Source: Apium graveolens
Lineage: Eukaryota > Streptophyta > Magnoliopsida > Apiales > Apiaceae
Length of the DNA: 64,000 nt
Assembly: GCF_009905375.1 (NCBI RefSeq)
Contig: NC_133655.1
Coordinates: forward strand, 163,745,627-163,809,626
Direction of reading: 5' to 3'
This document shows positions 22,881 through 54,302 of this stretch, piece after piece. Every line of letters begins with the position of its first letter. The first letter of the stretch is position 1. The position numbers and the translations under genes are program-made. The notes beneath the pieces were generated by a model. That model was given only the letters and a program-made list of their open reading frames with translations. It did not search any database and had not been told where the DNA came from.

Positions 22881-24507
22881 TGTAACACCCCCAAATCAGG
22901 GGTCGGGGATCCGGGTTGTCACGAGTTCCATTTCCCATAATAACACACAATCTTAATAAACAATCAACTACTCTGTACTGTGACCCCACAATAAACACAC
23001 ACACCACAAGTTATAGTCTTAGAGATGAATATCCAAAAATAACACGAGTCATTTTATTCCACAATTATATGCCATTACACCTTAAAAGGGTTTCTAAATA
23101 AATTTACATTTCTTTGCCATTATTATAATTCATAAAGATACATAAGTCTGGTACATCAAAAGTTGAAAGCCTAGCCTATTGGTAGTTGCTACCTCAGCTA
23201 CAGCGACATCAATGCCTATAGGAAACTGCGGAATGTTTCCTATCCGCTCACGAATTGGGAGCTTGGTCCTGTTCATCTTTGCCATAGATGAAGCTACACG
23301 ACAAAACTTGTATAGAATCAATCTTTGAAATATCTTCAAAATGAAATGAAGTTATGAGATACTTCATTTGATGAAAACATCATTTTGAAAACTCGACCCT
23401 GCCAACACTCAACAATCGCCCAGCCATAGCCTTTCTATTGAAGTGCTCTGGATAGTGTTGCAGAAATATCCAATTGGATGATGAACTCATTACGGGAGTT
23501 TGCCGCGCCAGGAAGACCACTTACGATGATCAGTCGCAGTAGTGCAACCCCACCATTTTCTACATGTAGAGGAGAACAGTCGGATTTACTTATCAACCAA
23601 ACCCTGGACTCCTAAGGAATGGACCATCTTAGCGGAACTTCCGGGCCATTTGGGCCAATAAATAAGGCTGGGTCAGCGCCACTCGACCACTTACGCCACT
23701 CCTAGTTCAGATGAAATCCATGACTCTGAAACGTAAAGCTCGTCTCCCCTTTCCCCAAGTAGGAACTTGTTGATACGACTCCACCAAGAAGTCGCATCTA
23801 GTTGGAAAGAAAAACTCACCGATATTTCCCAGGCGATGCCTGTTAATGGATTAACTTATTCCAAGAATTTTACTTCCCGAGTGTTGGGTAAGTAATCAAA
23901 AACTCTTTTATCAAAATAGCAACCTTGTTGCGAATATAAGAATACATCACGGAGCCGGATCCCTCAGATTTTTGAGCGAGTATTTAAATCCCCTTCGAAA
24001 GGAAGATCTTAAATTTGAAAACGAGTTTTGGGATCCGCTCTAACTTTTAAAATCATTTTGAAGACTCGAAAACATTTTTAAGAATGTTTGGAGTAATACT
24101 GATTTAATAAAATAAATCAGTCCCGATATATTAGAAAATATCTGAATATTATTATTTAAATAATATTCCCACAAGGATAATCCTTATAAAAATAATTGAA
24201 GTAGAAGTTTTAAAACTTATACTTGAAATGAATAATAAATAACCAAAGATATACTTATACGAAAGTACGATCTTTATTTGAATAATCGAAAATAAGTTTG
24301 ATTATCGAAACATTATTCTTTAATAAAATAAAGAATATTATTTAATAAAAGAAGCGGAGTCATAAGTCCTCGAATGAATATTCAAAATAATATTCATTTA
24401 ATAAAATAAGCGGAGTCATAAGTCCTCGAATGAATATTCAAAATAATATTCATTCAATAAAATAAAGTTATCGAATAAACCTTATTCGATTAATAGTTTT
24501 GAAAACT

Positions 24508-30180: not shown

Positions 30181-31259
30181 GAATGGCGCCAGTTGAAATG
30201 AAGGAGCTAGCAAAGCAATTGCAAGAATTATTAGAAAAAGGAGTGATTCGACTCAGCGTATCCCCATGGGGTGCACCGATATTATTTGTTAAGAAGAAAG
30301 ACGGAAGCATGAGGTTGTGCATCGACTATCAAGAACTTAATAAGCTTACGATCAATAACAAGTATCCATTTCCTCGAATCGACGATTTGTTTGACCAGCT
30401 GCAAGGAGTCAAGTATTTTTCTAAGATTGATTTGAGATCCGGATATCACCAACTGAAGATTAAGCCGGAAGATATACCAAAGACAGCTTTTAGAACAAGA
30501 TATGGTCGTTATGAATTCTTAATGATGTCTTTTGGATTGACCAATGCCCCAACAATATTTATGGACTTGATGAACCGAATTTTCAAGGAATATTAGGACA
30601 AGTTTGTAATTCTGTTTATCGATGATATTTTGATCTACTCCAAGTCAACGAAAGATCATGCGGAACATCTAAGGCAACTTTGGAGATTTTGAGGAAGAAG
30701 AAGTTGTATGCAAAGTTTTCAAAGTGTGAATTCTGGTTACAAGAAGTTCAATTCTTAGGACACGTAGTGAGTTATGAAGGAATCAAACTAGACCCAGCGA
30801 AGATTGAAGCTATTAGGAAGTGGGAAAGGCCTAAAACACCAACGAAAGTGAGAAGTTTCTTGGATTTAGCAGGATATTATCGACGATTTGTTCAAGATTT
30901 CTCGAAGATTGCGATGCCTTTGACAAAGCTTACCAGGAAAAGTGAGAAGTTTATATGGAACGAGAAATGCGAAGAAAGTTTTCAAGAATTAAAGAAGAGA
31001 TTGATCATGACACCTGTTTTGTCACTTCCAGATGATCAAGGGAATTTTGTTATCTATAGTGATGCTTCTCATAAGGGATTAGGTTGTGTTTTGATGCAGC
31101 ATGATAAAGTTATTGCATATGCCTCAAGACAACTAAAACCTCATGAGCAGAAGTATCCTACTTATGACTTGGAACTAGCGGCAATAATATTCGCCTTGAA
31201 GATTTGGAGACATTACCTATATGGAGAAAAATGTGAGATCTATACGGATCACAAAAGTA
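30181..31259 (+). pseudogene. Gypsy RT-RNase H fragment
   Basis: The fragment begins at [22 protein letters not shown] and contains RT motifs [47 protein letters not shown] and FIDDILIYS with both catalytic Asp. RNase H follows with FVIYSDAS and IYTDHKS. Lesions: TAG at 30594-30596 and a frameshift near 30670. It breaks off abruptly at 31259 in mid RNase H (after DHKS), where LTR sequence of chromovirus 2 begins. Unlike chromovirus 2, it keeps the 36-residue [11 protein letters not shown]...[10 protein letters not shown] segment. Confidence 0.88.
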
Positions 31260-31352
31260 CAGTTTTGTTACAACTTAGAAATGGGAAGTTTTGACCATGT
31301 CAGAGGTAGGCCCTCATTAGGCCCTGTTGGGCCTTAGTTAGAGGGAGTGTCA

Positions 31353-32909
31353 TAGAGGGCTATCTACTACAATGGGACATTGCTTCTCTTATCTCCTTGA
31401 AACCGCAGGAACAAAAAATAGCTCCTTAACTTCTTAGCTACAAGAAACTACAACAGCTACAAACAACAGGTTACGAGGTAACTTGAGCTTCTTAGCTCCT
31501 TAACTATAATAGCAAGTAATCTTCCTCCTCTGTTTAGAAAGCCCACAGGGTCTTTAGCTCCTTAACTTCAAGAGCTCCGAGCTGCAATAGCGACTTTCGA
31601 GATCTCGGTTCAGATCTGTTTGAAAAGTAGCAAGATGAAAACTGCTACCTTTTCCTCTCTGTTCAGGAAGGGATTCACTAGTAACCGAGAAAATACAAGA
31701 TCTTTTAAACACGGGGACATAAGATTGATATTTCCATATCTCTTTTCAGACATATCAACGAGAGAAAGCACTAGTGGAAATGGCATCTTCCTTGCTAAGG
31801 AGGTTGGATTCAACTTTATGTAATGTACGCGATTGTCATCGCCCAAAGAAGTCAATAACAAGCCATTGTTTGACCAATCGCGTATTCTCAACCAAGAAGA
31901 ATAAGACAGGAATATGCTGTAGAACGGGTTCTCTCTCTAAACTCCTTTCCACAATAGTAGCTGAAAACGAGGTCTACTCTGTTAAGGAGGCTACTTGAGC
32001 AACTTTAGCTACAGGACTACACAAGCTACAAGCTCATTAGCTCCCTTGACTACATTTGCTATTTTCGCTTCTTATTTACCAGGAAGGCCATAAACTACAA
32101 TCGGCAAGGATGAGCTTTCTCTTCCTGTCTTGTCCGTAAAGCTTGTTACTAAAATGGGATGCCGTTACCTTTTTCCGGCTGCAGGAACACCAACACATTA
32201 GCTACAAATAGGAACAACTATAGATGAATGCCCAGAATCTGCCGCTTGAGAACCGAAAGTGACATAAAAGAAGAGTCTCAGTTTGTGGGAAAGAGCTGGT
32301 GCCTTTAATATGCCTTGCTAGGTACTATCCTTAAAGTAAAGGAGGAACCGTCCAAAGAGGGTCATGCCATCACATCTCGTGACAGGATCTTTTTTCTTTC
32401 CTCTTTCGGATAGGTCTAAGGGGGGAGGAAAGGACAATTGCTATTTCATTTGGTGCTTTCTTTATCTTTGCAAGAAGGTTTGATGGAGGAATGCCGGGAA
32501 TGAGAGATGGGGTACTGGGACTGGAGCTAGTGGTTAACTATTCATATTCATCTTCCTCTCCCTTGACGGGAGTGAGTGCAAAAAGAAGGAGGCGGAGTAG
32601 GAATAGGAATTCGGAATATACTTTTTGAAAGAATGACGTAACCGACAGCTATTGAATAAGCCTTCCCTTCTTCCTTGACTGGTGATGTGGAATAACCGGT
32701 GTGCAGATGAATTAATTATCGAAAAACTTTCAATCTCATAAGAGAATAAAGAAAGTAGCCTAGCAGCCCCGATACGCCGAAACCTCTTATTCCGGCTAAC
32801 TTACTGCCGGAGTCATAAATTGCATAAGAGAAGAGACGCCGTATTTTTTATTAAAAAAGAGCTCTTCCGAATGATAAAGAAAAAGGGTGCTTAGGTTCGT
32901 TGGAATAGG
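31353..32909. other. Foreign insert in the LTR, probably mitochondrial-type DNA
   Basis: About 1.55 kb is absent from the matching 3' LTR. It is visibly richer in G+C than its surroundings and lacks the long A/T runs. Its texture (short AG/CT-rich words, e.g. GCCGAAACCTCTTATTCCGG, GATAGGTCTAAGGGGGGAGG, GAATGCCGGGAATGAGAG) looks like plant mitochondrial intergenic DNA. No mitochondrial gene was recognised, and the open frames within are short. A nuclear insert of mitochondrial DNA is the best guess, but an unrelated repeat cannot be ruled out. Confidence 0.45.
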
Positions 32910-33013
32910 ATTTGAGTTAGAATCATGTGTCATAGGTTAGTTCACATCAGGTTCGTTGGAATAGGATTTGAGTTAGAAAAAGGGTGCTTAGGTTCGTTGG
33001 AATAGGATTTGAG
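32894..33013 (+). repeat. Three copies of a 23-bp word at the insert junction
   Basis: GGTTCGTTGGAATAGGATTT plus GAG occurs at 32894, 32950 and 32991. Two of the three are preceded by AAAAAGGGTGCTTA. The 3' LTR has none of them, so they arose at or after the insertion event. Confidence 0.85.
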
Positions 33014-34764
33014 GCCCAAGCTATGCCCTTGAGCCACATCAGGTTTGGGAGTTGGCTTATGATCAGGAGAGTCTAGTGTAAAAGTTTTGGAGGTAAATTT
33101 GAACTGTAAGAGTGTTAAATGCACCCAAGAAACCTTAGATATCATTCTGAAATTTACCATAATGAGCACATTTACTTACCACATAGTTTTAGAGCACTTA
33201 GGAGTGAATTTTTGTTTGACCACTTAGTTGCAAGATAGTATAAAGTCAGTAGAGTGAAAGGCCCAAGTTAGGGTCAATATGAATTGGATGGTTTAGTAAA
33301 GGCACATCGAATTAGGAGGCCAAAATTTGGAGATTTTGTCTAGTTTAGCGACAAAGTGACTTAAGTAAGTGGAGCGAGATCATCCAATCCTAGTGTTGCA
33401 ATATGGCGTGTGTGATATTATTTGGTACTTAAATATGGTATGTGAGCATATGTGGCTATGTGTACTATTATGATTATAAGGTGATTGTAAATTGTGTGTA
33501 TATAGGCCTAAGTGCCATTGTGTTTAAATTTTGGTTTACAAATAGGTTGAGTTGGTAAGAATATATTATAATAAGGTTATTATTATTATTTGTGTAGGAT
33601 CTGGAGACGAGGCTAAACTTGCCATTAAGGTCGAGTAAAGCTTCCAGTTGCTCCTACCTGCCAGTCAAGTCCAGCCTTCTCAAGGAAAGTGATTCAACCT
33701 GCCTTTTTCATTTACACTGCAAGTCTGTGATAACTAGTTCATATATATGATGCGAGTATTTTAATTCACCTTGATATACATGAACCAAGTGGTTTCGAAT
33801 CTATATCTGTATTTATTTCAAGTAGTTTAACTCTACTTGAAGATTGTTATGCAAGTAAATCAAAATTCGTATCATGCTAGTATACCCAAGTAATTGTGAT
33901 CTTGAACCATGCACAAGTTATACTCAGTAACCTTATCTTAATACCTAAAAGTCAGTCATTCCTTAACGATTATCCATGATTGTTTGATAACCCTATCTTT
34001 ACCCTAAAGCATGACACTCTGTTATACCTTGAGTTAATGCTCACATTCTCTATATTTTAATACCTATACCTCATTTGGAACCTTTAATGCTTAATTTCTC
34101 TATATTTTTAAATACCTATGTCTTACCTAAAAACATTACCTAGAACCTCGTTTGACCTTGTTCCTTCATACTATCTGATAACCTTGCTAAATCTCACTGT
34201 CAAAATCCTTGTATATAGAAACCTTGTAATTCCCTTGATGAAGTATAGTCTAGTTGATCATGGCCTTAAAATTTAGTGGACCTTTTTCCTGTGCTTCAAA
34301 GTTGATCTAGAACCCTTGATAAAGATACTCACTATTTAAGAAATTAACCGTCACCTGGCATCAGTTTTTAATAAAATAAAAAGTTAAAATTTGGATTTCC
34401 AGTCCCTTTAAATAGTGGATCTGGACTGAGACGCAAGTCCTTTATGCTCTTAATTTGTAGGCTTAAAAGTTGCCTAGGGATCCCATTAATGTTCTATAAC
34501 CCAGCGAGGTTCGGGATTACTTCGCGGCTGATCACCGGCTGTAATCCATAGCGTCATAAAATGGTTTTTGATAAAGAAATGGTTTGAATGGTTTTGTTAT
34601 AAATAAAAGATGCCATCACTCAAAAGTTTATCTCTTGCTATTATTAGCTCTACCTTCACATTATTATTCTTATATCTCGATTTATGTTTTGTATTGTATT
34701 GTATAGCACTTGTTGAGCATTTGACTCACTACTTGCTTTCACCCTGATATTTGAGCTAGCAGAT

Positions 34765-34827
34765 ATGGTTAGATACAAGCAGAAAGCGCGTAAGACTTGT
34801 GATGCCGATGCATATGTTCGAGCTCAG
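34765..34827 (+). CDS. Exon 2 of putative spliced LTR gene: H3-tail-like N-terminus
   Basis: An ATG near the 3' end of the 5' LTR opens 21 codons starting M-VRYKQKARKT and ending at a CAG/GTAGAT donor (34828). Residues 2-11 match the histone H3 tail ARTKQTARKS at R2, K4, Q5, A7, R8 and K9; the 3' LTR copy (44157-44219) adds T6. The initiator Met precedes Val, so Met would be expected to be removed, leaving a free H3-like end. Joining to the acceptor at 35164 gives an uninterrupted frame with 35165-35455. The exon could be fortuitous, but the same position and phase recur in other LTR families here. Confidence 0.55.
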
Positions 34828-35008
34828 GTAGATTAGTGATCGTTTTGTGTGAGGACTCGATATTAGAAATCAGGTTGAAATAGTTAATAGTGTTGGGCTG
34901 TTCCAAACCCTAAACTGTAAGATCTTGGATTCAGTTGTATTTACATTCTTTTGTTATCTGTTGTAATAATTTGTATAATATATTGTTAAGCCAGGGTGTG
35001 ACAGGTTT

Positions 35009-35020
35009 TGGTATCAGAGC
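35009..35020 (+). other. Primer binding site, tRNA-iMet, chromovirus 2
   Basis: TGGTATCAGAGC lies five bases after the LTR end, the standard complement of plant initiator-Met tRNA 3' end used by many plant LTR retrotransposons. Confidence 0.95.
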
Positions 35021-35164
35021 TACTGTTTAGAGTCCCTGGACAACCTAGATAGGTTATAGGATATATGTATAAGTTAAAGGATATTATGCGAGAGAGTAGG
35101 TTAAGCGAATCTATCATTAATACTCCTCTTATATATATATATATATCTATGTATTGTTTGTCAG

Positions 35165-35455
35165 CAAAGGGTGTATTCCTCGTCATCCTCTGGGTCGGCT
35201 AACACTATTTCTTTCTCTGTGTATGCTGAGTTGAGGCGCGAGTTCGACATGCTTCAGGGAAACTACAACCAACTGTTAGACCGATTGAAGAAAGTGTATC
35301 CGGACAGCCGAAACTATGAAGGGAAGCCTAAGAAGCAGATGACTGCGAGACTTGAGACTTTGGTTCAATACGTCAATACTAAGCTTGAGGAGATGCCATC
35401 GCACCGAGACCGTACCAGCCAGTATACCCTCCAGATGATTGCGGATGAGCTCTAG
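35165..35455 (+). CDS. Exon 3 of putative spliced LTR gene: coiled-coil-like protein
   Basis: The frame starts right after a pyrimidine-rich acceptor (TTGTTTGTCAG, ending 35164) and runs 96 codons to TAG at 35453-35455. It has no ATG of its own near its start, which fits an internal or terminal exon. It begins with QRV then a Ser/Gly run and continues with SVYAELRREFDMLQGNYNQL, LDRLKKVYPD, KKQMTARLETLVQYVNTKLEEM; the heptad-like Leu spacing suggests a coiled coil. Joined to the 21 codons at 34765-34827 it would make a 117-residue basic protein. It is distinct from Gag, which starts at 35836. Function unknown. Confidence 0.5.
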   Translation, partial: QRVYSSSSSGSANTISFSVYAELRREFDMLQGNYNQLLDRLKKVYPDSRNYEGKPKKQMTARLETLVQYVNTKLEEMPSHRDRTSQYTLQMIADEL

Positions 35456-35835
35456 AGTATTGTGAAGATGCTTCGATAGGAGAAGACTACCAAACCCCGT
35501 TCTGACGGAGTGGAGCCTTAGTTTTTTCCATTATCTACCTTTCATATTGTTATATTATCGGACTTTGTAGAATTCCCTGTTGTTTCCTTTAAATAAGCAT
35601 GTTATTCCTAGATTCAGACTTTATTCTAATCTTGATGTACCTTGACCTTAAAATTTCAATTATTATGCACTATCATTCTATTTGCTTTCAATTGTTTTTA
35701 CACCTTTATATGCATCACCCTTTTTGTTTAATTTAAAAACTCGACCTCATATGTGAACAGAATGTAATGTGACACCCTATCCTCGAATTATCTTATTGTT
35801 CATACCTGTTTTGATAAAACTTTTATTTCAGGATC
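35456..35835 (+). other. Leader between the small ORF and gag
   Basis: No coding potential is seen. It ends in a strong 3' splice-like site, CTTTTATTTCAG at 35831, four bases before the gag ATG at 35836. Confidence 0.5.
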
Positions 35836-36990
35836 ATGCCACCCAAAAAGAAGAACCCAACAACCACATCTACCACAAATCCTAATATTCTTCGATTACT
35901 GGAAACCTTACAACAACAAACAAATGATATATTTCAACAACAAAGAACTCTTTAACAACAATTTGAAAACCAAGATAACCGTGAACCACACCAACCACCT
36001 GATCCACCAGTACCACCTCGACAAATTGTCACTTTCAAAGCTTTTCAGAATGTGAATCCACCTGCATTTCATGATACCACTGACCCAGTAATATCTAACA
36101 CATGGATTAAGGAAATGGAAAGAGCTTTTGAATTGGTACAGTTAGGGGACGACCAGAAGACACCATATGCTACTTACTTCCTGAAGGGCGAAGTCATTTA
36201 TTGGTGGGATTCAGTAAAAGGTATGGAGGCAAATCAGCAAGTTTCTTGGGAAAGGTTTAAGAAGTTATTTCTGGACAAGTATTACCCTAAGTACATGCAG
36301 AATCAGATGGAGCTTAAATTTCTTGAACTAAAGCAAGGGAGTATGACTATATTGGAGTATGAGAAGAAGTTTACGGAGCTATCAAGGTTTGTGACAAAGT
36401 ATACCAACAGTGAGGAGGAAAAAGCAAAGAGATTCCAACAAGGATTAGAGTCTTGGATCAGAGATAGAGTGGCTATGTTTGAGCTTGATACTTATGTAGG
36501 AGTAGTACAGAAAGCTGCTCTGATTGAGGGTAATAGGATGCAGTCAAGGAAGGAAAGAGATAACAAGAAGAGGAAGGTTCCATTTTACGGAGAGAAGTCT
36601 GAAGCTGGAAGCTCACAAGATAGGAGTTTGAAAAGGATTGGATTCCACAAAGGCGGGAATTTTCAGAAGAAGGGAAATTTGAATAAAAGACAAGAATCAA
36701 AAGGGAACAACCAGGCAAGCCAAGGGCAAGTTGGAGAAAATAGATTTCAGAGGCTAGGGTGCAAGCATTGTGGAAAAAGACACCAATGAGTGTGTAATAA
36801 GCTGAACATGACATGCTATAGATGCAACCAGAAGGGACATTTGGCTAACGAGTATAAGATGCCGAAGCCGGGAGTCACATGCTACAAGTGTGGAAAGACT
36901 GGACACATAGCTAGGGAGTGCAAGTCAACCGGACTAGTAAAAGCTCTGATGAACGTGGCAAGCACCAGTGCAAGCATACCAGCTGAGGTA
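35836..36990 (+). pseudogene. Chromovirus 2 Gag with zinc knuckles
   Basis: The ATG at 35836 (MPPKKKNPTTT) is the first of the gag-pol frame, which stays in one frame to 40341. Gag features: a Gln-rich N-terminal part, then the retrotransposon Gag core (WIKEMERAFELVQLGDD, YWWDSVKG, WERFKKLFLDKYYPKYMQNQ, FTELSRF), then a basic stretch and CCHC zinc knuckles. Knuckle CYKCGKTGHIAREC is intact, CYRCNQKGHLANEY has lost its last Cys, and CKHCGKRHQ is broken by a stop. Gag coats the RNA genome in particles. Nonsense codons at 35953-35955 (from CAA) and 36787-36789 (from CGA) make it inactive. Confidence 0.92.
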
Positions 36991-38820
36991 TTGGCATTAC
37001 CTCCACCACCTACAATAACTCCGCAAGCAACGACAAGGACATTTGATTTGAAAATGAAGGATGCTGTTCAGAATTCTGAGGTGATAGCAGGTACTCTTTT
37101 ATTGAATAATGTTGAAGCTAAAATATTGATTGATTCTAGAGCAACGAGATCTTTTATATCAGAAACTTTTGTTGATAAACTTCAATGTGATAAAATGACC
37201 ATGAACGAGGTAGTAAATGTGGTAATTCCGAATCAAGAGAAGATTTCGGTGAGTCAACTCTGTCCTAAGTGTGAGATTGATATCTCGGGATATAAATTTT
37301 CAGCCAACTTGATACTTTTTAAGTCAGGGGAGTTCGATATAATCTTAGGCATGGATTGGTTAGGGAAGAACAACGCTCAGATAAATTGAAAGTCTAAGAA
37401 GGTGTACTTAAAGACGGAGAGTAGAGAGAAAATAGTATTTAAGGGACAGAGGCAAGATCAACTGTTTCTTACAATTGTTCAGGCTAAGAATTTGTTTAGG
37501 AAAGGTTGTGAGTCATTCCTAACTTATGTAATAGATTCAGAAAGAGACAGCCTCGGCACACAAGATATTCCCGTAGTCAACAAATATCCAGATGTGTTTC
37601 CAGACGAACTACCAGGTTTACCGCCAGATCGACAAATTGAGTTTGAGATCAACTTAGCTCCAGGCACAGAACCAGTTTCGAAGGCCCCATATAAGATGGC
37701 ACCAGCAGAAATGAAAGAGTTGGCAAGCCAGCTACAAGAATTGTTGGACAAAGGAGTGATAAGGCCAAGTATGTCGCCATGAGGAGCACCTGTTCTGTTC
37801 ATAAAGAAGAAAGATGGAAGCATGAAGCTATGTATAGATTATCAGGAGTTGAATAAAGTGACGATTAAGAACCGATACCCGCTACCAAGAATAGATGACC
37901 TATTTGATCAGCTGAAAGGAGTAAAGTGCTTTTCCAAGATTGACTTAAGATCAGGATACCATCAATTAAAGATCAAAGAAGAAGACATCCCAAAGATAGC
38001 ATTCAGGACAAGATACGGACATTATGAATTCTTAGTAATGCCTTTTGGGTTGACTAATGCTCCGGCAACATTTATGGATCTGATGAACCGGGTATTTAAG
38101 AAGTATTTGGAAGAGTTTGTAGTGGTATTTATTGATGACATTCTTATCTATTCAAAGTCGGAAGAAGAACATAAGCAGCATCTGTGGATAGCGTTGGATA
38201 TACTCCGACAAGAGAAGTTTTATGCCAAGTTTTCTAAGTGTGAGTTTTGGTTAAAGGAGGTTCAATTTTTGGGTCATGTTATTGGAAGTGAAGGAGTTAA
38301 AGATTTCTTGAAAATCACCACGCCAGTGACTAAGTTAACTAGGAAGAATCAAAAGTTCGAATGGAATGCAGAATGTGAGAATAGCTTTCAAGAGTTAAAG
38401 CAGAGGTTGGTTACAGCTCCGGTGTTGGTACTACCAGATGATAAAGGAAACTTTGTGATTTTCAGTGATGCTTCACATAAGGGTCTGAGTTGCGTGCTAA
38501 TGCAACACAATAAGGTGATTGCGTATACATCAAGACAGTTAAAACCACATGAATTAAAGTACCCTACACATGACTTGGAACTAGCAGCCATAGTATTTGC
38601 ACTTAAGATTTAGAGACATTATCTTTACGTAGAAAAGTGTGAGATCTACACGTATCACAAGAGTTTAAAGTATATTTTCACTCAGAAGGAGCTCAATATG
38701 AGGCAAAGGAGATGGTTGGAACTAATTAAGGACAATGATTGTTCGATAAATTATCATCCTGGAAAGGCGAACGTGGTAGCCGGTGCTTTGAGTAGGAAGG
38801 AAAGGTTGAATATGATGGCA
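36991..38820 (+). pseudogene. Chromovirus 2 protease, reverse transcriptase and RNase H
   Basis: The protease segment reads AKILIDSRATRSFI: the usual catalytic DSG has become DSR by a single GGA to AGA change, so the aspartic protease is dead. RT follows: [61 protein letters not shown] and [11 protein letters not shown] with both Asp. After HVIGSEGVK a 36-codon in-frame deletion (108 bp) removes the segment before [12 protein letters not shown]. RNase H has FVIFSDAS and [18 protein letters not shown] has lost the TDH Asp (TDH to TYH). Stops: 37387-37389, 37780-37782 (TGG to TGA) and 38611-38613 (TGG to TAG). Confidence 0.92.
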
Positions 38821-40341
38821 ATACCAAAAGAATTGTCTGAAGAGATTAAGAGATTTGAATTGGAACTTTTTGATTGTGGAATAGTTGAAGAGGTTTGTCG
38901 TACTATGACTTTTTAGCAAACATTATTGGAAAAGATAAAGAAATGTCAGGAAAAAGTAATGCAGCAGGAAAGAAATCAGCTGACCCGGGAAGAGATTGGG
39001 ACTCAAAGAGATGGGCAAGGTATACAAAGGTTTTCCTCAAGAATTTGGATTCCTCATATGACTGAATTGAAGAATGAGATATTGCAAGAAGCCCACAATT
39101 CAAGATTTTCAATCCATCCAGGAAGCACCAAAATGTACCAAGACTTAAAGTAGAACTTTTGGTGGCCAAATGTGAAGCGAGAAGTGGCAGAATGGGTTGC
39201 GAAGTGTTATACTTGTCAGAAAATGAAGGTAGAACATTAAAGACCAAGCAGATTAATTTAGCCCCTAAAGATTCCAGAATGGAAATGGGAAAACATTGCA
39301 ATGGACTTTATAGTGGGATTACCCCGAATGAAATTCGGACATGACGCTATATGGGTTATAGTTGATCGCCTTATGAAGTCGGCGCATTTTCTTCCAATCA
39401 ACGAGAGGTCTTCTTTAGACCGATTGGTCCATCTGTATGTGCGTGAAATCGTATTAAGACACGGCATGCCCGTATCGATAGTTTCAGACAGAGATCCCCG
39501 ATTTAACCTGAGATTTTGGAAATAATTTCAAGAAAGTCTTGGCACGAAGTTAAACATGAGTACGGCGTATCATCCGCAGACTGACGGTCAAAGCCAAAGG
39601 ACAATTCAAACAATCGAAGACATGATGCGTAGTTGTGCAATTGACTTTGCGGGAAGTTGGGACGACCACCTGCCATTGGTAGAATTCTCCTATAACAATA
39701 GTTATCACTCCAGTATTGGCATGCCACCATACGAAGCTTTATACGGACGGAAATGCAGATCACCAACTTGTTGGGATGAAGTGGGAAAAGGAAAGATTCT
39801 AGGCCCAGAATTGGTACAATAATTGCATGAGACAATCAAATTAATTCAGAAGAGGTTACTTGCTGCTCAAGATAGGCAAAGAAAGTATGCGGATCCAGCG
39901 CGCAAGGATGTCAGATTCCAAGTGGGTGAAGCCGTTTTGCTGAAAGTATCACCGAAGAAGGGATTGTCTAGATTTGGCAAGAAAGGGAAGTTAGCACCTA
40001 GATATATTGGTCCTTTTGAAATTTTGAGTCAAGTGGGGAAGGTGGCTTATGAGTTAGCCTTACCGCCTCAATATCAGCATGTGCATAATGTGTTCCATGT
40101 GTCATTACTTAAGAAGTACAATCCTGATGTCAACCATGTGATAGAATATGAACCTATAGAAATTCAGGCAGACCTATTATTTGTGGAGAAACCTGTCAAA
40201 ATACTCGACTGGCAAGCAAAGAGTCTTAGAAATAAGTTGGTGAAGTTAGTAAAAGTACTTTGGAGGAACCCCAAGGTCGAAGAGTCAACCCAGGAGTTAG
40301 AGTCTGATATGCATTCCCGGTATCCTCATCTGTTCTCTTAG
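38821..40341 (+). pseudogene. Chromovirus 2 integrase with chromodomain
   Basis: HHCC module (IHPGSTKMY, CYTCQKMK), then DDE core [36 protein letters not shown]. In the last, Glu of SER has become Gln (SQR), a loss of the catalytic Glu. GPY module: [35 protein letters not shown]. Chromodomain: [21 protein letters not shown], where the Trp of the STWELE core is Gln. Stops at 38914-38916, 39151-39153, 39238-39240, 39259-39261, 39523-39525 and 39820-39822, mostly explicable by CAG/CAA to TAG/TAA. No frameshift. The integrase places cDNA in host chromatin. Confidence 0.92.
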
Positions 40342-40375: not shown

Positions 40376-43300
40376 TGTTACGACCGGCATTTTGTGTAAT
40401 ATTATTTGCGAACTTTGTATAATATTTGAATCGATTATAAATATACCTATTTAATTATACACTTGTGTGAATGGAGTTGCTGCATTGTAAATTGCTTTAC
40501 TCAGAATATGAATTTTTTAAAGCGATAGTTTTATTAATTGCTCCTATTTTTGATTTATAAAGAATATTCTTTATCATGGAAAATTTTCTTTTAAAAATTA
40601 TTTCTTTTACAAATTTCAAAAGTGATCTCATAAAATTTCTAAAAGTCCAAGTTATTTTATGGTATAAATTTTATAATTTTTGAACTTTTATTTTATTTTA
40701 TAAAAATAGATCTTTGAAAATTAGTTGTTAAGTAATTAGCAAATTACATGAATATCCTTGCACTCAAATACCCTCCCATTCAACTAAAGGGCTAAAAAGA
40801 CAATTCCAACCCCCACTCACTCTCATTCTACTAGCCAATTTACCACTTTTTCCTTGCATGTAAATTTACCTAACTTTAGCTAGAAGGTTACTTTTGTCAT
40901 TTACTAAATCCACTCACTTTTAGTAAAAAAAAGGCATAAAAACAAACACAGGTATCATAGCACTTCATTTTTATTTTTTTCACTCCACAATTCCACCCAC
41001 TCCTTCCTCCTCCCCTCCCTCTCGGCTCAACCCTCCCTCTCGACCATCCCATAGCTGAGGCCCCACATCCCCTTCTTTTCTTCATTCTTTCACAAAAACA
41101 TTCATCTTCTATTCAAGTAATCTTACTCCCTACATGTTGTTCTTATATATTTCAAAAAGTTAGAGTGAGAAGTTTATATTTTGATCTTGCATGTCATAGT
41201 TTAACTAGAACTCAAAATACAATCTTGATTCTCATGGATTTAAGGTTGTATTGTTGAGGGAACTACAAGGAATGGTGAAATGCCAATTCAAGAAAGTGAA
41301 GCTCTTGTTTTTAATGGTCATTTCCCTCCCATTTCATTCGGCCATGACCATAAGGGAGCCGAATGAATGATTCTTAGTGATGTCTTGTTGCCCTGTTCAA
41401 TTCTTATATGTTTTTGTGATAATGGCATGAATTTTGTAGTGAAAACTTGATAAAACCCTTTGCATGCTAAGTGATCATTTAGTTATAGCTTATGCTAGGC
41501 TTGCATGTTTATTTTATGATAAAATTATTGTGGAAATCATATGGTTTTGACTTGTAAGATTTGAAGGCATGAATGTATGTAAACAACTCATGATTTTCGG
41601 AAGTTTTGATCATTCGGATTGATAATTGTTAGTAGACTTTAATTTCAGTTGAGTTAAGATAATGATCTTGATTTGTGATCCTTGATATGTGATGTTGATT
41701 CGTATATATTTATAAAGAAGATATAATTTGTTGTTTTAAAAAACTTGATGACTTGTAATTACTGTAGTATGTTAACTTTTGTTTTGCTATATTGCACCTT
41801 AGGTAAGGATGATCTCCACTAAGTAAATATTGATTGTAGGAGAGTTAGTTCATTAGATCACCTTGGTTGAGGTTTGGTGTGGATTTTTGGTTGTTGTTGG
41901 TTGGGTTTGTCAAGTAAGAATCTTGGTGAAAGGAGAGTATTAGTTTCTGCAGAAAATCTGTTTTGTACCCTGAGGTTTAGAGTGAGATTTGACCTTGTCA
42001 TTATTGTTCACTTTGAGGCCCAAGACACCAGAAACTAGCACTAGGAGTATACAATAGGTTTTAGGTGTTTGTTGGAGGTTTGTAAGACGTTTGGTTACGT
42101 GCACGAGTGGAAACACCAAATCTGTCCAGCAGGGGACAGTTTTGTTGCAACTTAAAAATGGGAAGTTTTGACCATGTCATAGGTAGGCCCTCATTAGGCC
42201 CTGTTGGGCCTTAGTTAGACGGAGTGTCAGAGGAGTTTTTCCAGCCATATTTAATAGTATTTGAGTTAGAATCATGTGTCACAGGTTAGTTCAAATCAGG
42301 ACCCTTTTCTGCCTAGAAAAACAGGGGAAGCGTAGACTTTAAGCTTAGGCCTATGGAGGCCCAAGCTAGGCCCTTGAGCCACATCAGGTTTTGGAGTTGT
42401 CTTATGATCATGAGAGTCTAGTGTAAAAGTTTTGGAGGTAAATTGGAAGTGTAAGAATGTCAAATGCACCCAAGAAACCTTAGATGTCATTCTGAAATTT
42501 ACCATAATGAGCACATTCACTTACCACATAGTTTTAGAGCACTTAGGAGTGAAGTTTTGGTTGACCACCATAGTTTCAAGATAGTATAAAGTCAGTAGAG
42601 TGAAAGGCCCAAGTTAGGGTCAATAGTAATTGAATGGTTTAGTAAAGGCACATCGAGTTAGGAGGCCAAAATTTGGAGATTTTGTCTAGTTTAGCGACCA
42701 AGTGACTTAAGTAAGTGGAGCGAGATCATCCAAGCCTAGTGTTGCAATATGGCGTGTGTGATATTATTTGGTACTTACATATGGTATGTGATCATATTTG
42801 GCTATGTGTACTATTATGATTATAGGTGATTGTAAATTGTGTGTATATAGGCCTAAGTGCCATTGTGTTTAAATTTTGGTTTACAAATAGGTTGAGTTGG
42901 TAAGAATATATTATAATGAGGTTATTATTATTTGTGTAGGATCTCGAGACGAGGGTAAACTTGCCATTAAGGTCCAGTAAAACTTCCAGTTGCTCCTACC
43001 TACCAGTCAAGTCCAGCCTTTTTCAAGGCAAGTGATTCAACCTGCCTTTTTCGTTTACACTGCAATTGTGTGATAACTAGTTCATATATATGATGCGAGT
43101 ATTTTAATTCACCTTGATATACATGAACCAAGTGGTTTCGAATCTATATCCTTAGTATATGAAAATGACATGAACCCTCAAGTATTTATTTCAAGTAGTT
43201 TAACTCTACTTGAAGATTGCTATGCAAGTAAATCAAAAGTCCTATCATGCTAGTATACCCAAGTAATTATGATGTTGAACCATGTGCAAGTTATACTCAG

Positions 43301-44395
43301 TAACCTTATCTTAATACCTAAAAGTCAGTCATTCTTTAACGATTATCCATGATTGTTTGATAACCCTATCTTTACCCTAAAGCAGACACTCTGTTATACC
43401 TTGAGTGAATGATCACCTTCTCTATATTTTAATACCTATACCTCATTTGGAATCATTAATGCTTATTTTCTCTATATTTTTAAATACCTATGTCTTACCT
43501 GGAAACATTACCTAGAACCTCGTTTGACCTTGTTCCTTCATACTATCCGATAACCTTGCTAAATCTCACTGTCAAAATCCTTGTATATAGAAACCTTGCA
43601 ATTCCCTTGATGAAGTATAGTCTAGTTGATCATGGCCTTGAAATTTAGTGGACCTTTTCCCTGTTCTTCAAAGTTGATCTAGAACCCTTGATAAAGATGC
43701 TCACTATTTAAGAAATTAACCATCACCTGGCATCAGTTTTTAATAAAATAAAAAGTTAAAATTTGGATTTCCAGTCCCAAAGGGGGACAAATATTTTCTT
43801 TAAATAGGGGATCTGGACTGAGACGCAAGTCCTTTCTGCTCTTAATTTGTTGGCTTAAAAGTTGCCTAGGGATCCCATTAATGTTCTAGAACCCAGCGAG
43901 GTTCGGGATTACTTCGCGGCTGATCACCGGCTGTAATCCATAGCGTCATAAAATGGTTTTTGATAAAGAAATGGTTTGAATGGTTTTGTTGCAAATAAAA
44001 GATGCCATCACTCAATAGTTTATCTCTTGCTATTATTAGCTCTACCTTCATATTGTTATTCTTATATCTCGATTTATGTTTTGTATTTTATTGTATAGCA
44101 CTTGTTGAGCATTTGGCTCACTACTTGCTTTCACCTTGATATTTCAGCTAGCAGATATGGTTAGATTCAAGCAGACAGCGCGTAAGACTTGTGATGCTGA
44201 TGTATATGTTCGATCTCAGGTAGATTAGTGATCGTTTTGTGTGAGGACTCGATATTAGAAATTAGGTTGAAATAGTTAATAGTGTTGGGCTGTTCCAAAC
44301 CCTAAACTGTAAGATCTTGGATTCAGTTGTATTTAATTTATTTTGTTATCTATTGTAATAATTTGTATAATATATTGTTAAGTCGGGGTGTGACA
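40376..44395 (+). repeat. 3' LTR of chromovirus 2 (4.0 kb)
   Basis: Starts TGTTACGACCGG after the PPT and ends GGGGTGTGACA; TG...CA ends. It is the complete LTR of this element. A TATA-like CATAAAAAC (about 40934) precedes a pyrimidine-rich leader (40970-41110) and a possible donor at 41117. An acceptor TTGATATTTCAG at 44147 closes an intron-like block of about 3.0 kb. The small H3-like exon follows. Right flank AAAAATAAA belongs to copia B; the left counterpart is missing, so no target duplication can be assigned. Confidence 0.9.
44157..44219 (+). CDS. H3-tail-like exon in the 3' LTR of chromovirus 2
   Basis: This is the best copy of the motif. Twenty-one codons start M-VRFKQTARKT and end at CAG/GTAGAT, preceded by a good acceptor (GATATTTCAG, ending 44147). 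Residues 2-11 match histone H3 ARTKQTARKS at seven of ten positions, including K4, Q5, T6, A7, R8 and K9, with Thr in place of Ser10. The 3' LTR copy cannot splice to the element's own exon 3 because it lies downstream, but it preserves what a new insertion's 5' LTR would carry. Confidence 0.55.
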
Positions 44396-45251: not shown

Positions 45252-48200
45252 TGTAACAACCCAAATCCGGGGTCAAGATTTGGTGTCACTAAACAATCTT
45301 TACATAAAATAAAAGAATATTCAATTAACCCCTTGAATCCGGATCGTTTACAGGTTATGGTATGAAACAAGAATCTAACCTTCTACAACTTACAATAACT
45401 AAAATACAAGTGTAAATACCTTTGAACTAATGCTCTTGTCATATTCTTCTAACTTCTTCAATCTTTCGCAGCGAAGATTTCTCTAACTTCTGCTGTCTAT
45501 CAAAGCTATTCACTTTTATCCTTATCCGTTTCTGGAAGAAATAAGAATTTACGAAGCAAGACTGAGCAAAAAATGCCCAGCAAGTATATAATTTGAGTTT
45601 CAAGCATTAATACCCAAGGTAAAACTTCCGGGCAAAATCTTAAAACAGTTTTAAATAATTCTATTTATTTGAGTGAGTTGAGCGAATAAACGTTGGCTGT
45701 CACCAGCCTTTAACTATAAATCTAAAAGTGACAAGCGATTCCCCGTTTCATCTCCTAAATCAGGGTTTTGTCCGGTTTTGGAATCATAAAACTTTCGAGA
45801 GAGAATGCCGTTAATGGCGATCAACAATAAATTAGACTGGACACTAGAAACCAACATATGCACTATACCCTGCTGATCAGTCAGGATACAGTGCGGATCT
45901 ATACCCAACTGTATAGGTCCATTCAGGTACCTAGGCATTATAACCCAAGGGTCCGGTCCATCCCCGGACCATGGGGTACAGCTCATCGGTGGCCCTCACA
46001 ATAACCATCCAGCCCATAGAGTATTTTGATATCAAATCATTTTGAATTTAAAACATCCTAACTCAGGGTTCGCAAATAACCCGAAAGAATGGGTATTTGC
46101 TCAAGAGAGCAATCAAATTATAGGAACAATAATGAAAAGAACTGGCATAAAAAGAGTAATTGCAGCGAAATATAAAACAGTTAACTATTTTGAACTTAGA
46201 ATAGGAGCGTATAAATATTTGCAGTATTTAAGGAGAAAGGTTAGGAATACTTGCCTCAATAAGCTTTAACCGCTATTACTTTGGTTTGATTTGAACGTTC
46301 GGCTTTACCGTCAAACTACTATCCCAATTTGGATACGATCCCAACACCCAGGCCCTTTAATTGGAACTTCATTGTTCTCGACGTCTAATCATTAGATCAT
46401 TCTTAGTCTGATGTCGATACTCGGGTTTTTCGTCCAGGACCTACAGGGTTGAAATACCCTAATTCAGATAATCACTTAAACTCAACTTAATACCACTATC
46501 ACTTCTACCCATGCGATTTCATAACCCAACTTATATTTATATGTATTATTAAAATACACATAACAATTAGGGTTTACATCTAAAAAATTCGGTTCGGTAT
46601 TTATTTTCGGAAAATACGTATCCTCATCGTTTTGAAAAACAGGTAATCGATTATATATAAATTGTTTTGTCTCAATCACACTTAAGTTCATATAATATAA
46701 TTATATATGATTATTTGACATATTCGATAATTATAGGTTACGTTTCCATATTTTCAGAATTTATTTCCCGAAAATCGGGCAGCGTTTCCTCTGTTTATCG
46801 GCCTACCCATTGAATCAGTTCGACGTCAATCACAATCAACAATCACAATCATTCAATCCATAACCAAATTCACCAATCCCAATCACCGATACGAACTCAA
46901 TTACTAATTATTGTTATTTGTATTTTATCTATAATTTACTATTTGTTTTCATTTCATAATTAATATTACGAACTAATTTATTTAATTTATAAACGTAGGA
47001 CTCAGAATTAATCATCATTGTCCACCGTCGGCTCGCCGAGGCTCATCTTCGACGGCGGTAAAATTCACAGGTTCCCGTAATATCGGGCCTCCTACGTAAA
47101 TTTCACCGATATATCAATATAATCCCCGCATAAAAATATATTTTATTTTCATAACCAAATTAATTAATTTTCTGCAGAAATTAAGTGTAATAAAATAATT
47201 AAAAGAATCCAGATTAAACACGCGCATACAACAGGTAGCAACAGTGAAACACCCCGCCACCAACACGTGCGAACACACGTGGAGGCCGGAAGAACACATC
47301 TGGCACAGGACAACAACAAGTGACACAGGGGCACATACACACACCTATTTCACACATATACGCACGCACAACATTATAACACACGCACGCAGAACACAAT
47401 CGGAGACGGCCTTCCATGCGCCACCGCCTCGCCGGAGAAGGCGAAGGGCGGCGACCAGAAAAACAAAAGGAAACACGACGATAAACTCACCAGAAACAGA
47501 GGAAAAGAGGGAATGATGAAACGAAGAAAGAGAGAAGAGAGGTTTGAGAGAGAGATTTCGAGAAAGAGAAAGAGTGAGGAGAGATTGAGATTTAGAAGAG
47601 AGAGAACAGAGAGATTGAGCCCCTCCCCCATTTCTGTATTTTTTTTATCAATCATATCACAACACACTTTATTTCCCACTCTGACAGTCCCGTTTCATAT
47701 CGTATTTTACGTTTTTAACGAGAAATCTTATGTGTAAATAAAACTCTATGAATTACCCAACTAACTTTAAAACTCTCGAAAGGATAATAATAAAAAAATT
47801 AATAAAACAAATATTTTTATTATTTTAAGTCATTTTTGACACGTAACTTACATCCGCATTTAATGATTTAATGAACAAACGGGCGGTTTAAATATATGCC
47901 AGAAAATTACCGGAATAATTTTAAAATCTCAGAAATAATCAAAAAGTAATAAAATAAAATTTTCATAATTTTTGAAGAATTCTGAAATTAAATACTCATT
48001 TTATAATTAAATACAATCAGAAAATCATTTAAAGATAAATGATTGATAAAATATTAATTTATAAAATTTATAAACTATTAAAAATAAATATTGAAATTAT
48101 AAAAGCATAAAAATAATTTTAAAACAATTTTAACATTTATGAGAATAAATATTCAATAAAATCACTTTAAAATGAATTAAATTTATACAGCTCGATAATT

Positions 48201-48937
48201 AATTCTGAAATTAATCTTCGCGTCCAACAAATCACAACCTATTAATAATACCGCAACACATAGCCGATAGACACATCACATATTTTATTTACTTAATAAT
48301 TCCATAATTACATTTACATATTAGATCCAAAAATAGGTTATTTAGCCGCTAAATAACTAAAAAGACGATATGATTTTAATACCAGAATTGGATAATTATC
48401 AAAACGGAACTTACTATAAAACACTTTACATGAAAACAAGGTAATAATAATTCACCTTCCGAGAATATGAATTTTTATCAATCTATACAATGATTAGCTT
48501 ATCAAAAATTTCATGTCGGGACTCGTACAGGTCAAACCGTACCCCGATCGAGAAAGTCAAAACATAAAAAGTGTTCAGAATTATCAGATTAGGTTAGGAA
48601 GGAGTTTTCGGAAGAGTTTCAGGTTGTAAAAACGTAAAAACGATTGAAGTGGGACGATTTCTGATTCTAAAAATTAATTTTATAATTATGTAAGAATAAT
48701 CATTATTAATTCTATAAATTCTTATAAATTCACATAACAATTCAAAAATTCCCAGAAAATACCAAGATTATTTATATTTTATTCTGGATAATTAAAAATT
48801 AAAATATCTAAATTTTTATCAGAAATAACATCCAAATATTAATATCAATTATCAAATAATTCACCAAAATTCACCTTAAATCACATAATGATTATTTATT
48901 GATAAAAATAATTACATAATATTTCTCAGACGTTACA
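45252..48937 (-). repeat. 3' LTR of chromovirus 3 (3.7 kb)
   Basis: On the minus strand it starts TGTAACGTCTGAG and ends CCGGATTTGGGTTGTTACA. It pairs with 54303-57998 with near-identical sequence throughout by eye. A pyrimidine-rich leader (47510-47640, CT-rich on the minus strand) ends in a strong donor CTG/GTGAGT at 47490. An acceptor TTCTTCCAG is at 45532, giving a 1959-bp intron-like block. Antisense open frames over the GA-rich part are low-complexity shadows. Confidence 0.95.
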
Positions 48938-48950
48938 TCCTTCCCCCCTG
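48938..48950 (-). other. Polypurine tract, chromovirus 3
   Basis: CAGGGGGGAAGGA on the minus strand abuts the 3' LTR. Confidence 0.85.
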
Positions 48951-48955
48951 AAAAG

Positions 48956-48973
48956 GATTCTGTCCTCAGAATC
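48956..48973 (-). other. Hairpin upstream of the PPT (chromovirus 3)
   Basis: Identical 18-mer GATTCTGAGGACAGAATC; kept although the adjacent pol is almost unrecognisable. Confidence 0.75.
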
Positions 48974-51900
48974 ATGCTAAGGAACATACCAGGAAAATTT
49001 CCAAGTATCTCTCTTATAATTTCTCATGTTTCATCACTTTAATCACAACTCAACGGTCTCTTACCGGCATAAAATTTATGAGTTACTTACGTAACCTGAA
49101 TCACTTCTCTATTTCATACATATGGAGCTAAATCGCTCAACCTAGTCATACACCTATGAACGTCTTATGAACTCGTTATATTTGTGACAACAAGACCAAC
49201 TCATTCACAATCATTCTATCTATCTCACTGTTTCAAAGGACTACTTAATTTACACTAACCTTCTTTTATTTTTAATTTTAATAGCTCATGTTCATAAAAT
49301 TTCTATTTTTACTGACTGTTTTACTTTACTTTTAATGTCTCTTTCTGTTCGAATAGTCTGGCCTATGATCAATTCCTAATCATATTCAAGAATCTTTAAT
49401 CGGTTTCTTACACCTTCCATCCGTCTGCGCCCGATATTCTGAGCTCATGGCGTCTGATGCTTCAGAACTTTCTAAATCTATTCAAAAACTAAAAACGAAA
49501 ATCTCGGCAATTGCATCTAACTCACCACTTTGTAGCATACTTCTATTTCTTTTCAATCTCTATCAAGTAAATTCATTGAGCGAGAATCTCTTACTATCTG
49601 AAAGGAAATATATTAATTTAGGGAACGGAATGAATCATAACTTCATTCAAAACCCGGTCTCTTGGTACTAATACTCATTTTGTTGTCATATTAAATTAGA
49701 TATCAATACGAACTTTGATGCTCACAACGTCCCATACTGAAGTCAACATCAATCATCTGCATTAATACCACCTTTGATAACTAACAACAAAGTAAGTATC
49801 AGCATAACCCAGAAGACGGATCAAAGCCTATTCTTCAATTTATAACTTTTCCAATGCCTTTATCCACTTTCCAGCAATCTTAGTAACATTTACTCTTTCT
49901 TTTCTACTCTAGACATCTGTCTCTAAATGGAACTTTTTTGGTTGGTAATTAACCATACTTCCGTAGCTCATCATCTATTGTGACCATAGTTCACACCTTT
50001 GAAGCTTAGAATGCAGTTGTTACTTTTCAACCCTCCGCAAGCATATTTTTCAACGCTTAACTTGCTCTTCCTTAGTCCTCGAATTAGCGAGGATGTGATC
50101 AATAAATACAGTTACACTATCCAAATACTCTTGGTACATTAATTTCATTTAATCTTCAGATTTGCAATTTCTGATAATCGACGCGTAACTTCATACCTCC
50201 ATTCTCTTTTTCCATGATCACTTTTATGTACAGCGCAAAACACTCTTTATTTCATTATTCTTTCATTCCACATTTATGAAGTTTTCCTTTACTCATTATT
50301 TCATCCATATTGAGTTATACGGATTTTGACACCAGCTTGACTCTATACAGTAACCGACGAGAAATTCTTACCTCATTCTCCGAGGTAACCTTGGTATATC
50401 ATTCATTCGAACCTCCTGGACTTCACTTTAATTTTAAAGAATTCCGACATGAGATTCATTGTAACGTTCTTCTCTCACAGTTCACCATTAATACCTTTGT
50501 TTAGTCTTTCCTGGTTACACGCATCTTTGGAACGAATTCCTATTTCCAATTATCGGCATTTCACTTCAGTTTTGGCACAACTGATGTTCATAACTTGCTT
50601 ATATCCTGGATCTTTTTTATCAAATTTCTTTACCATTCTTTTGATTCCACTTCTTTTCTTATTTATTTCTCCATTCTCATTATTCATTATCTCTTTTTAG
50701 CATAAGAAATTTTCTTACAAATGTTCTCTCCACTAATTTACAGTAGCTTCCATTAACTCGTCATTCATATGGGTATACATCAAAGTCCTTCTTGGAACGC
50801 TATTACAGATAATATAATCTCTTTGCTTTATCTCGTACCTTCAGTTCTTGAAAATATTCTTCTTACTAGCATGTACCAATCATATTCTGTTTCTCCTGTT
50901 TATCGAAAAGAGCGTACCCATCTAGATAAAATCTCGCACATGTCTGCAGCAACATCACACTACTTTCACTAAATTTCCACTTCTGCTGATGCCATTACTT
51001 CCTCCAAATTGCTAATTGCTTTGATTTCGGATCTGAAAATCATGTTAGAGCTTGACTCAATCTAATTGGAATCGATTTAACTAACCATTAGTTGGTAAAG
51101 TTGATCAATTAACTCCTTTAACTGATCACTTAAACCAAGTGCTGACTAGCTAACTGGAATCAAAGACCAATTATATAAAGTCGGTTTGTTCATAACAACT
51201 TTCTCAAGAACCGAGATCGCAATCATTTGGAGTACTGACGAGAACGACAATATACTTCTTTTTCCTTAAATGTAGGGTAATTTCTAAAAATTTGGGCAGC
51301 ACTTCCCATATATCATTGACTACCAGTCGGACTCAAGCCGACACCATCAATCAATCAAAGCATCCATAATCATACCCATCCACTTTTATCAACCAAATTC
51401 ATCCATTCACCATAACCCAAACTGTAACATTTTGATCAGCACCTGTACTATTAACTGGCATAACATCTATCTTTTGAATTGAACTAAGGTCTTGAACCAA
51501 CAAGGATTAATATACTTTTCTCAGTTCTTTCAGAATATTACAAAATGTCATTAATGAATTTATCCCATTATTTTTCAAGGATTTTATTTCGCGATTCTTT
51601 TAACTTATTTCTTGTCATTACCAATTGTGTACCGTTACTTTTAAGATTTATGCCGCATCCTTCAACCAATCACAACAATCATCTATCTTGGACGATACAC
51701 ATTCAATTTCATTAACTACTCTGTTTGTCTTTTAATAACCACGCACGGTTTTTATTATTATCGTCGTAATCTGATGGAAACTTAATCGTTATATCATTAT
51801 TTCTTAAAAGATTTCACAATCGAGTCACCATTGCTTCATCTTACCTATGTTTCCGTATCAAACTTTCATCACTGGCTCGGCTATGGTGCTAAATTTATCA

Positions 51901-54287: not shown

Positions 54288-54299
54288 GCTCTAATGCCA
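54288..54299 (-). other. Primer binding site, degenerate tRNA-iMet, chromovirus 3
   Basis: The minus strand reads TGGCATTAGAGC, two transitions from TGGTATCAGAGC, just downstream of the 5' LTR end. Confidence 0.75.
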
Positions 54300-54302
54300 A
54301 CT

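Follow-up and report, generated by a model that had tools for sequence, protein, structure and literature searches.

Chromovirus 2 and its accessory gene

The window, by which we mean the whole 64,000-nucleotide stretch of the celery (Apium graveolens) genome analysed here, contains an LTR retrotransposon, chromovirus 2, with gag, protease, reverse transcriptase/RNase H and integrase in that order between its LTRs and a primer-binding site after the 5′ LTR; features lie on the forward strand unless noted. The 3′ LTR (40376-44395, ~4.0 kb) was delimited by its end motifs, TGTTACGACC and GGGTGTGACA, and by BLASTN. The continuous part of the 5′ LTR (32904-35003), also ending GGGTGTGACA, corresponds to the last ~2.1 kb of this ~4.0 kb; BLASTN aligns it with 42253-44395 at 91.7% identity including gaps (106 mismatches in 2158 columns). 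A search of the window placed a separate 97-base LTR piece at 31259-31355, while the first ~1.76 kb of the LTR has no second occurrence within the window. Rearrangement has affected the beginning of the 5′ LTR (31259-33012): the 97-base piece is followed by non-LTR sequence and then by short direct repeats, TTCGTTGGAATAGGATTTGAG, around 32900-33012.

The primer-binding site TGGTATCAGAGC (35009-35020) is presumably that for initiator tRNA-Met. The gag gene (35836-36789, ATG at 35836) has its capsid domain in 35956-36789 and carries in-frame stops at 35953-35955 (TAA) and 36787-36789 (TGA). It is followed by CCHC zinc knuckles and aspartic protease (36790-37389; Pfam PF00098, PF08284), reverse transcriptase and RNase H (37783-38613; PF00078, PF17919), an integrase core broken by a stop (39436-39741; TBLASTN with protein P0016), and an integrase C-terminal SH3-like domain with a tail at the chromodomain position (39823-40341; PF24626), which we take to resemble a type II chromodomain. 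Chromovirus 2 appears to be of the long-LTR Ty3/gypsy chromovirus type, and its architecture suggests the Tekay/Del clade.

Divided between the LTR and the interior of the element is a small putative spliced accessory gene whose predicted protein begins like the tail of histone H3. Exon 1 (34765-34827), within the LTR, has 21 codons, translates as MVRYKQKARKTCDADAYVRAQ and is followed by GTAGAT. The predicted intron (34828-35164, 337 bases, GTAGAT...TTGTTTGTCAG), with GT and AG conserved across copies, takes out the end of the LTR and the primer-binding site. Exon 2 (35165-35455), with TTGTTTGTCAG directly 5′ of it, encodes a Ser-rich linker and a helical domain; in the window copy it is open for 96 codons, to a premature TAG at 35453-35455. 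In 63 of 89 celery copies coding continues through the segment corresponding to 35456-35521, with the family stop at 35519-35521, giving a full exon 2 of 118 codons and a would-be protein of 139 residues. Exon 1 recurs in the 3′ LTR (44157-44219), where it reads MVRFKQTARKTCDADVYVRSQ and again precedes GTAGAT. Re-reading of the sequence placed the exons, their phase, the splice words and the motif where a preliminary description of this DNA had put them, and its statement that the intron removes the LTR end and primer site also stands. The 117-residue product given there is that of the window copy, and for the family it gives way to the 139-residue form. As a sense ORF reaching from the 5′ LTR toward gag, present in many copies and outside gag-pol, the gene has the properties of a 5′ additional ORF (aORF).

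A TATA-box-like TATAAATA at 34598-34605, 160 bases before the exon 1 ATG, could mark a promoter. A short upstream ORF, MFCIVLYSTC (34684-34716), precedes that ATG in the presumed leader.

The window copy of chromovirus 2 is dead, given the in-frame stops in gag and pol, the premature TAG in exon 2 and the changes in exon 1, where Tyr replaces Phe at H3 position 3 and Lys replaces Thr at position 6, the latter costing one H3-matching residue. The interest lies in the chromovirus 2 family rather than in this copy.

Copies, splicing and selection

Copies were collected from the celery genome by DNA likeness to a window segment and by protein likeness to exon 2, exon 1 being left out of the latter search. 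From the first-look candidates, 40 of 4886 (DNA search) and 150 of 6968 (protein search) were scored, and the family has at least 150 scored matches. Ninety-nine loci were fetched and reduced to 89 sequence-distinct copies, a non-random sample; of the ten dropped, six were the same place found twice and four (L015, L073, L074, L076) were different places identical over a 400-base key. The donor word defines two subfamilies: group A (GTAGAT, 36 copies, including the window copy) and group B (GTAGAA and two variants, 51 copies). L081 and L092 belong to neither, the latter, with an A-type donor and a B-type body, having been excluded by hand; exon 1 could not be placed in L020, nor the acceptor in L036.

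Among the 89 copies the ATG is present in 84, the GT in 89 and the AG in 84, the splice sites being conserved; exon 1 is open in 75 and exon 2 full in 63. Everything is intact in 49 of 89. Many copies of group A are decayed, and 11 of 36 are fully intact. In group B 38 of 51 are, a share that is biased upward for exon 2 and unbiased for exon 1 because these copies were found mostly through the exon 2 protein match.

In 30 of the 36 group A copies and 48 of the 51 in group B (78 of 87), no in-frame ATG lies 5′ of exon 2 without an intervening stop. Since most copies lack such an ATG, joining of the exons would be a simple way to provide exon 2 with a start codon. Intron lengths range from 299 to 341 bases, one copy with an unplaceable acceptor excepted, and are spread over all three frames; a frame open without splicing from exon 1 through exon 2 occurs in 0 of 89 copies. 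Annotated gene models favour the junction, short of proof: in celery, P0003 and P0008 are chimeric models with an identically placed junction of exons 1 and 2, and P0012, also chimeric, continues from exon 1 into unrelated sequence. All three set MVRFKQTARK or a variant within a longer protein, and these chimeras therefore make the celery annotation no independent proof of a free N-terminus.

Selection was analysed for chromovirus 2 among the LTR families here, with divergences taken from random samples of 400/300/300 pairs, pN/pS of the exons from 300/200/200 pairs and pN/pS of gag from up to 250/200/200 pairs. Net divergence per site between groups A and B is highest in the LTR part of the intron (0.180), followed by the region after the gene (0.105), the leader (0.101) and the upstream LTR (0.097). 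Lower values were obtained for the intron part with the primer-binding site (0.047), exon 1 (0.045) and exon 2 (0.043). Within exon 1 the divergence amounts to 0.002, 0.001 and 0.132 at codon positions 1, 2 and 3. All five majority differences between the groups in exon 1 are at third positions and all five are synonymous; read in the two shifted frames, 5/5 and 4/5 of the same differences would be nonsynonymous. In exon 2, 14 of 22 majority differences are at third positions. None of three control stretches has a codon-type periodicity.

Net pN/pS is 0.02 for exon 1, a rough value given that only five differences underlie it, and 0.17 for the exon 2 domain; the two gag segments tested gave 0.21 and 0.03. 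The constraint on exon 1 covers all 21 codons and so goes beyond the H3-like part, with a ratio of 0.02 in both halves. Exon 1 behaves as a protein-coding exon in the frame noted above, constrained like the better of the gag parts tested, and purifying selection on both exons in celery is well supported. Random substitution in the exons, an outcome that the preliminary description held to count against the gene, was looked for, and the substitutions are not random. That the gene is real is thus well supported; its transcription and splicing, and any binding by its product, are more conjectural.

Likeness to the histone H3 tail

The commonest celery N-terminus is MVRFKQTARKT, that of the window copy MVRYKQKARKT and that of histone H3 MARTKQTARKS. 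Celery departs from H3 with Phe at position 3 and Thr at position 10, a point against mimicry. In the 88 copies with 21 aligned codons, the matches to H3 are kept at R2 in 84, K4 in 84, Q5 in 79, T6 in 80, A7 in 69, R8 in 83 and K9 in 84, so that the H3-like residues are not lost from most copies (69-84 of 88 keep each one), a loss that had also been named as counting against the idea. KQTARK is exact in only 58 of 89 copies, which also tells against mimicry.

The H3 likeness in register exceeds chance. The two strands of the window together have 2427 ATGs; of these, compared in fixed register with H3 residues 2-11, only three (44157, 34765 and 10632) reached 6-7 matches of 10, none had five and two had four. 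MERTKAPLRQN, which recurred with four matches in a background scan, is antisense of the exon 2 tail. Shuffling of exon 1 residues reached the 6/10 of the window copy in 112 of 400,000 trials and the 7/10 of the celery family in 4 of 400,000, in keeping with the H3-like N-terminus first described. A phmmer search of PDB with the 21-residue exon of the window's 3′ LTR gave no match at E up to 10.

Alignment searches with the exon 2 region found proteins of hogweed, Heracleum sosnowskyi. The start MVRTKQTARKSSNG, continued by QYVIAQ-Q(R/C)AHSSSS much as at the celery exon junction, is shared by P0021, P0024 and P0015, the last a cluster of 13 sequences; the fourth protein, P0020, starts differently. 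The hogweed N-terminus, MVRTKQTARKS, equals the first eleven residues of H3 save for Val in place of Ala after the Met, and its 9/10 score was reached in 0 of 400,000 shuffles. When P0015 was compared with PDB, the 60 matches shown of 86 were all H3 or H3-type chains, aligned at the N-terminus, with E-values of 0.06-0.8, weak as expected for so short a match. By these alignments the accessory gene has a close relative in hogweed that is closer to H3 than the celery form. The hogweed gene, read here from its proteins, presumably has an intron as well. The accessory gene idea gains from this annotated relative in a second genus, still nearer to H3. The exon 2 domain also has a more remote branch, at ~30% identity, made up of P0023, P0025, P0026, P0028 and P0029. 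No relatives were found in viral contigs.

Exon-1-like ORFs also occur in other LTRs, as three single ORFs outside chromovirus 2 that were picked by eye or scan. (i) An ORF at 10632-10718, MTRLKQTQRKRVGSVPRLPVDIVAAIAAE, is followed by GTAGAT, and its position, donor and sequence suggest homology with exon 1. It begins MTRLKQTQRKR (6/10 H3 matches in register); its LTR ends GGGTGTTACA at 11017-11026, and 394 bases separate its ATG from the LTR end, against 238 in chromovirus 2. Placing it in the LTR of chromovirus 1 proved wrong, as that LTR ends at 5849. (ii) A weaker ORF on the minus strand (23193-23276), MNRTKLPIRERIGNIPQFPIGIDVAVAE, in a related LTR, is followed by GTAGCA; it begins MNRTKLPIRER (4/10) and lies 395 bases before the LTR end at 22881. 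(iii) Chromovirus 1, whose 5′ part was taken from L100, has a basic LTR ORF, MKPIRTRVKKRVKQR (MKPIRTRVKKRVKQRDPL...; L100:5484-5591), followed by a GTGTAA donor; the 3′ LTR copy, at window position 5433, lies 416 bases before the LTR end. Together these suggest that an LTR-borne first exon may be common to several families, with H3 likeness graded among them. Behind its primer site chromovirus 1 also has a Pro-rich 5′ ORF (L100:6078-6893, one internal stop), and an hhalign comparison of the chromovirus 2 aORF with one part of this one detected no sequence relation. A third long-LTR element in the window, element 3 (45252-57998, minus strand, LTRs of ~3.7 kb and 95.6% identical), has no clear exon-1-like ORF.

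An AlphaFold2 model built with 19 sequences (mean pLDDT 69, pTM 0.45) leaves residues 1-35 at low confidence without secondary structure, followed by four helices; it thus predicts a disordered tail and a helical domain, where the preliminary description had a Ser run and a coiled-coil-like domain. Foldseek of the helical-domain model against PDB gave nothing significant, and comparison of the domain with Pfam and with PDB sequences gave nothing credible and no Pfam family above cut-off. The helices in the model suggest that the domain is probably oligomeric.

Proposed function, rival readings and known systems

Our best reading, to which we assign a probability of about 0.6, is a spliced accessory gene whose product carries an H3-tail mimic on a helical domain and probably engages writers or readers of the H3 tail, weakening silencing. 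Transcription would start in the 5′ LTR shortly upstream of exon 1, and the LTR donor would be spliced to the acceptor past the primer-binding site. Because sequences needed for reverse transcription are removed, the spliced product would be a subgenomic mRNA and no genome. The predicted protein, of ~139 (celery) to 155 (hogweed) residues, would carry, behind a disordered N-terminus, a Ser-rich linker leading to a helical domain that is probably oligomeric. Val at position 2 permits Met removal, after which the N-terminus would read V-R-F/T-K-Q-T-A-R-K-T/S, with R2, K4, Q5, T6, A7, R8 and K9 at the exact H3 distance from a free N-terminus. Several such tails could then be shown to the host enzymes and readers of the H3 N-terminus as a multivalent look-alike. 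The H3K9 pathway silences such elements in plants, and for that reason our first guess for the target is the machinery of H3K9 methylation, e.g. the SUVH family; H3K4 writers or PHD readers come second. The tail might act as a decoy or a recruiter, either way weakening silencing of the element. The promoter, the splicing and Met removal steps, oligomerisation of the product, its binding partner and its anti-silencing effect all belong to the conjectural part of this proposal. Its fullest form is more tentative, and we hold it a little under even odds: a transposon-encoded mimic of the full N-terminal H3 tail on a helical scaffold, decoying or recruiting H3K9/H3K4 machinery and so shielding the element, under selection in celery and near-identical to H3 in hogweed, its H3 match having arisen in an LTR exon that is less H3-like elsewhere.

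The chief rival is a plain basic tail. The gene would be real and spliced, with exon 1 merely a conserved basic N-terminus for nuclear localization (NLS) or nucleic-acid binding and the H3 likeness a by-product. The nearby exon-1-like ORFs are basic and less H3-like (MKPIRTRVKKRVKQR and MNRTKLPIRER lack a close likeness), which makes a generic basic tail possible, and the sunflower Tekay 5′ aORF protein is described with a predicted NLS (PMC11728184, in part). Yet the exact residues are conserved, beyond charge, at a net pN/pS of 0.02, and the hogweed protein matches H3 at 9/10 in register from the Met, a score that no shuffle reached. An NLS, moreover, need not keep Q5-T6-A7, and we regard the plain basic tail as unlikely, though the most serious of the rivals. 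That the tail mimics H3 so as to bind the element's own integrase chromodomain, tuning integration, is a good deal less probable. In its favour, the element has the gag-pol domain order and an integrase whose C-terminal tail sits where a chromodomain would be; against it, Pfam gives no chromodomain in that tail (40081-40341), its filters dropping most weak matches, and type II chromodomains are reported to lack the cage residues, with their partner unknown, in the portion of PMC6317226 available. The preliminary description's reliance on the integrase chromodomain as a reader of methylated H3K9 finds no support, on the same two points.

Three further readings concern the exons themselves. Exon 2 might be translated from unspliced RNA through an upstream ATG, leaving the LTR ORF unrelated: an in-frame intron ATG exists in 9 of 87 copies (6/36 and 3/51), and there is a metagenomic protein, P0004, of this kind. 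However, the other 78 copies have no such ATG, intron length falls in all three frames and exon 1 evolves as coding sequence, so we consider this very improbable. Still less credit goes to the view that conservation of exon 1 concerns not a protein but a signal of the LTR at the DNA or RNA level (a promoter, packaging or splicing element). Exon 1 does adjoin the splice donor, in LTR sequence presumed to be transcribed, and the slow intron part flanking the primer-binding site (net 0.047) means that cis constraint exists nearby; but 5/5 of the subfamily differences are third-position and synonymous, and the flanking LTR on both sides diverges two- to four-fold more. Least believable of all is a chance ORF with a chance resemblance. 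The window copy alone, with its 6/10 matches and premature stop, might encourage that notion, but conservation across 89 copies, between the two subfamilies and into another genus, and the codon-position pattern, speak against it. The last two readings were set aside on the codon-position test and the window ATG scan. What remains, on our verdict, is a real and selected accessory gene, spliced as far as its sequence lets us infer, with an H3-tail-like N-terminus.

Histone mimicry by viral and host proteins, anti-silencing proteins of plant transposons, and Tekay sense ORFs between LTR and gag are already known. The 5′ aORFs of Tekay/Del elements, e.g. sunflower Tekay 13-2, likewise lie in sense orientation between the 5′ LTR and gag; most copies conserve them, and their products are partly disordered, have some helices and are of unknown function, as far as described in parts of PMC11728184 and PMC7264820. 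The sunflower aORF differs in encoding a 402-residue Pro-rich protein (PMC11728184, in part), and the main text of that paper contains the strings ‘histone’, ‘splic’ and ‘intron’ 0 times. Viral H3-tail mimics, i.e. influenza H3N2 NS1 (ARSK), SARS-CoV-2 ORF8 (ARKS) and adenovirus protein VII (AKKRS), are comparable in that a parasite protein with a short H3-like motif engages chromatin factors; their motifs have 4-5 residues, C-terminal in NS1, whereas the celery match, from a plant retrotransposon, spans ~10 in register at an N-terminus presumed to be free (PMC10208167, in part). VANC of the Arabidopsis VANDAL elements resembles the celery protein as a transposon accessory protein against host silencing, a role proposed in celery; VANC is sequence-specific, VANDAL is a DNA transposon, and histone mimicry is not reported for VANC in the portions available of PMC5735166 and PMC10398659. 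We found no report of a transposon-encoded H3-tail mimic among the best-matching papers of the open-licence PubMed Central literature. If the tail binds H3 machinery or is modified by it, a silenced multi-copy retrotransposon family would have a direct mechanism of escape, and the natural peptide series VRTKQTARKS, VRFKQTARKT, TRLKQTQRKR and NRTKLPIRER could map which H3 residues matter.

The arrangement of the exons also has partial counterparts. CRM chromoviruses of plants have coding sequence within the LTR, but there the coding region extends into the 3′ LTR, whereas celery has a separate first exon in the 5′ LTR (PMC3059260, in part). Barley Bagy2 makes a spliced mRNA for an accessory ORF, which differs in being env-like and 3′ of pol (PMC7264820, in part). 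No LTR-encoded first exon of a 5′ aORF was found reported among the best-matching papers of the open-licence PubMed Central literature. The celery arrangement suggests a route by which LTR elements may produce a subgenomic mRNA, with the first coding exon in the LTR and the primer-binding site in the intron.

Splicing of exon 1 to gag was also considered and rejected on reading the sequence, as exon 1 would enter gag out of frame. An acceptor-like TTTATTTCAG (35822-35838) lies directly 5′ of the gag ATG; such a site occurs in the majority of 87 copies, a hint that the leader may undergo additional alternative splicing.
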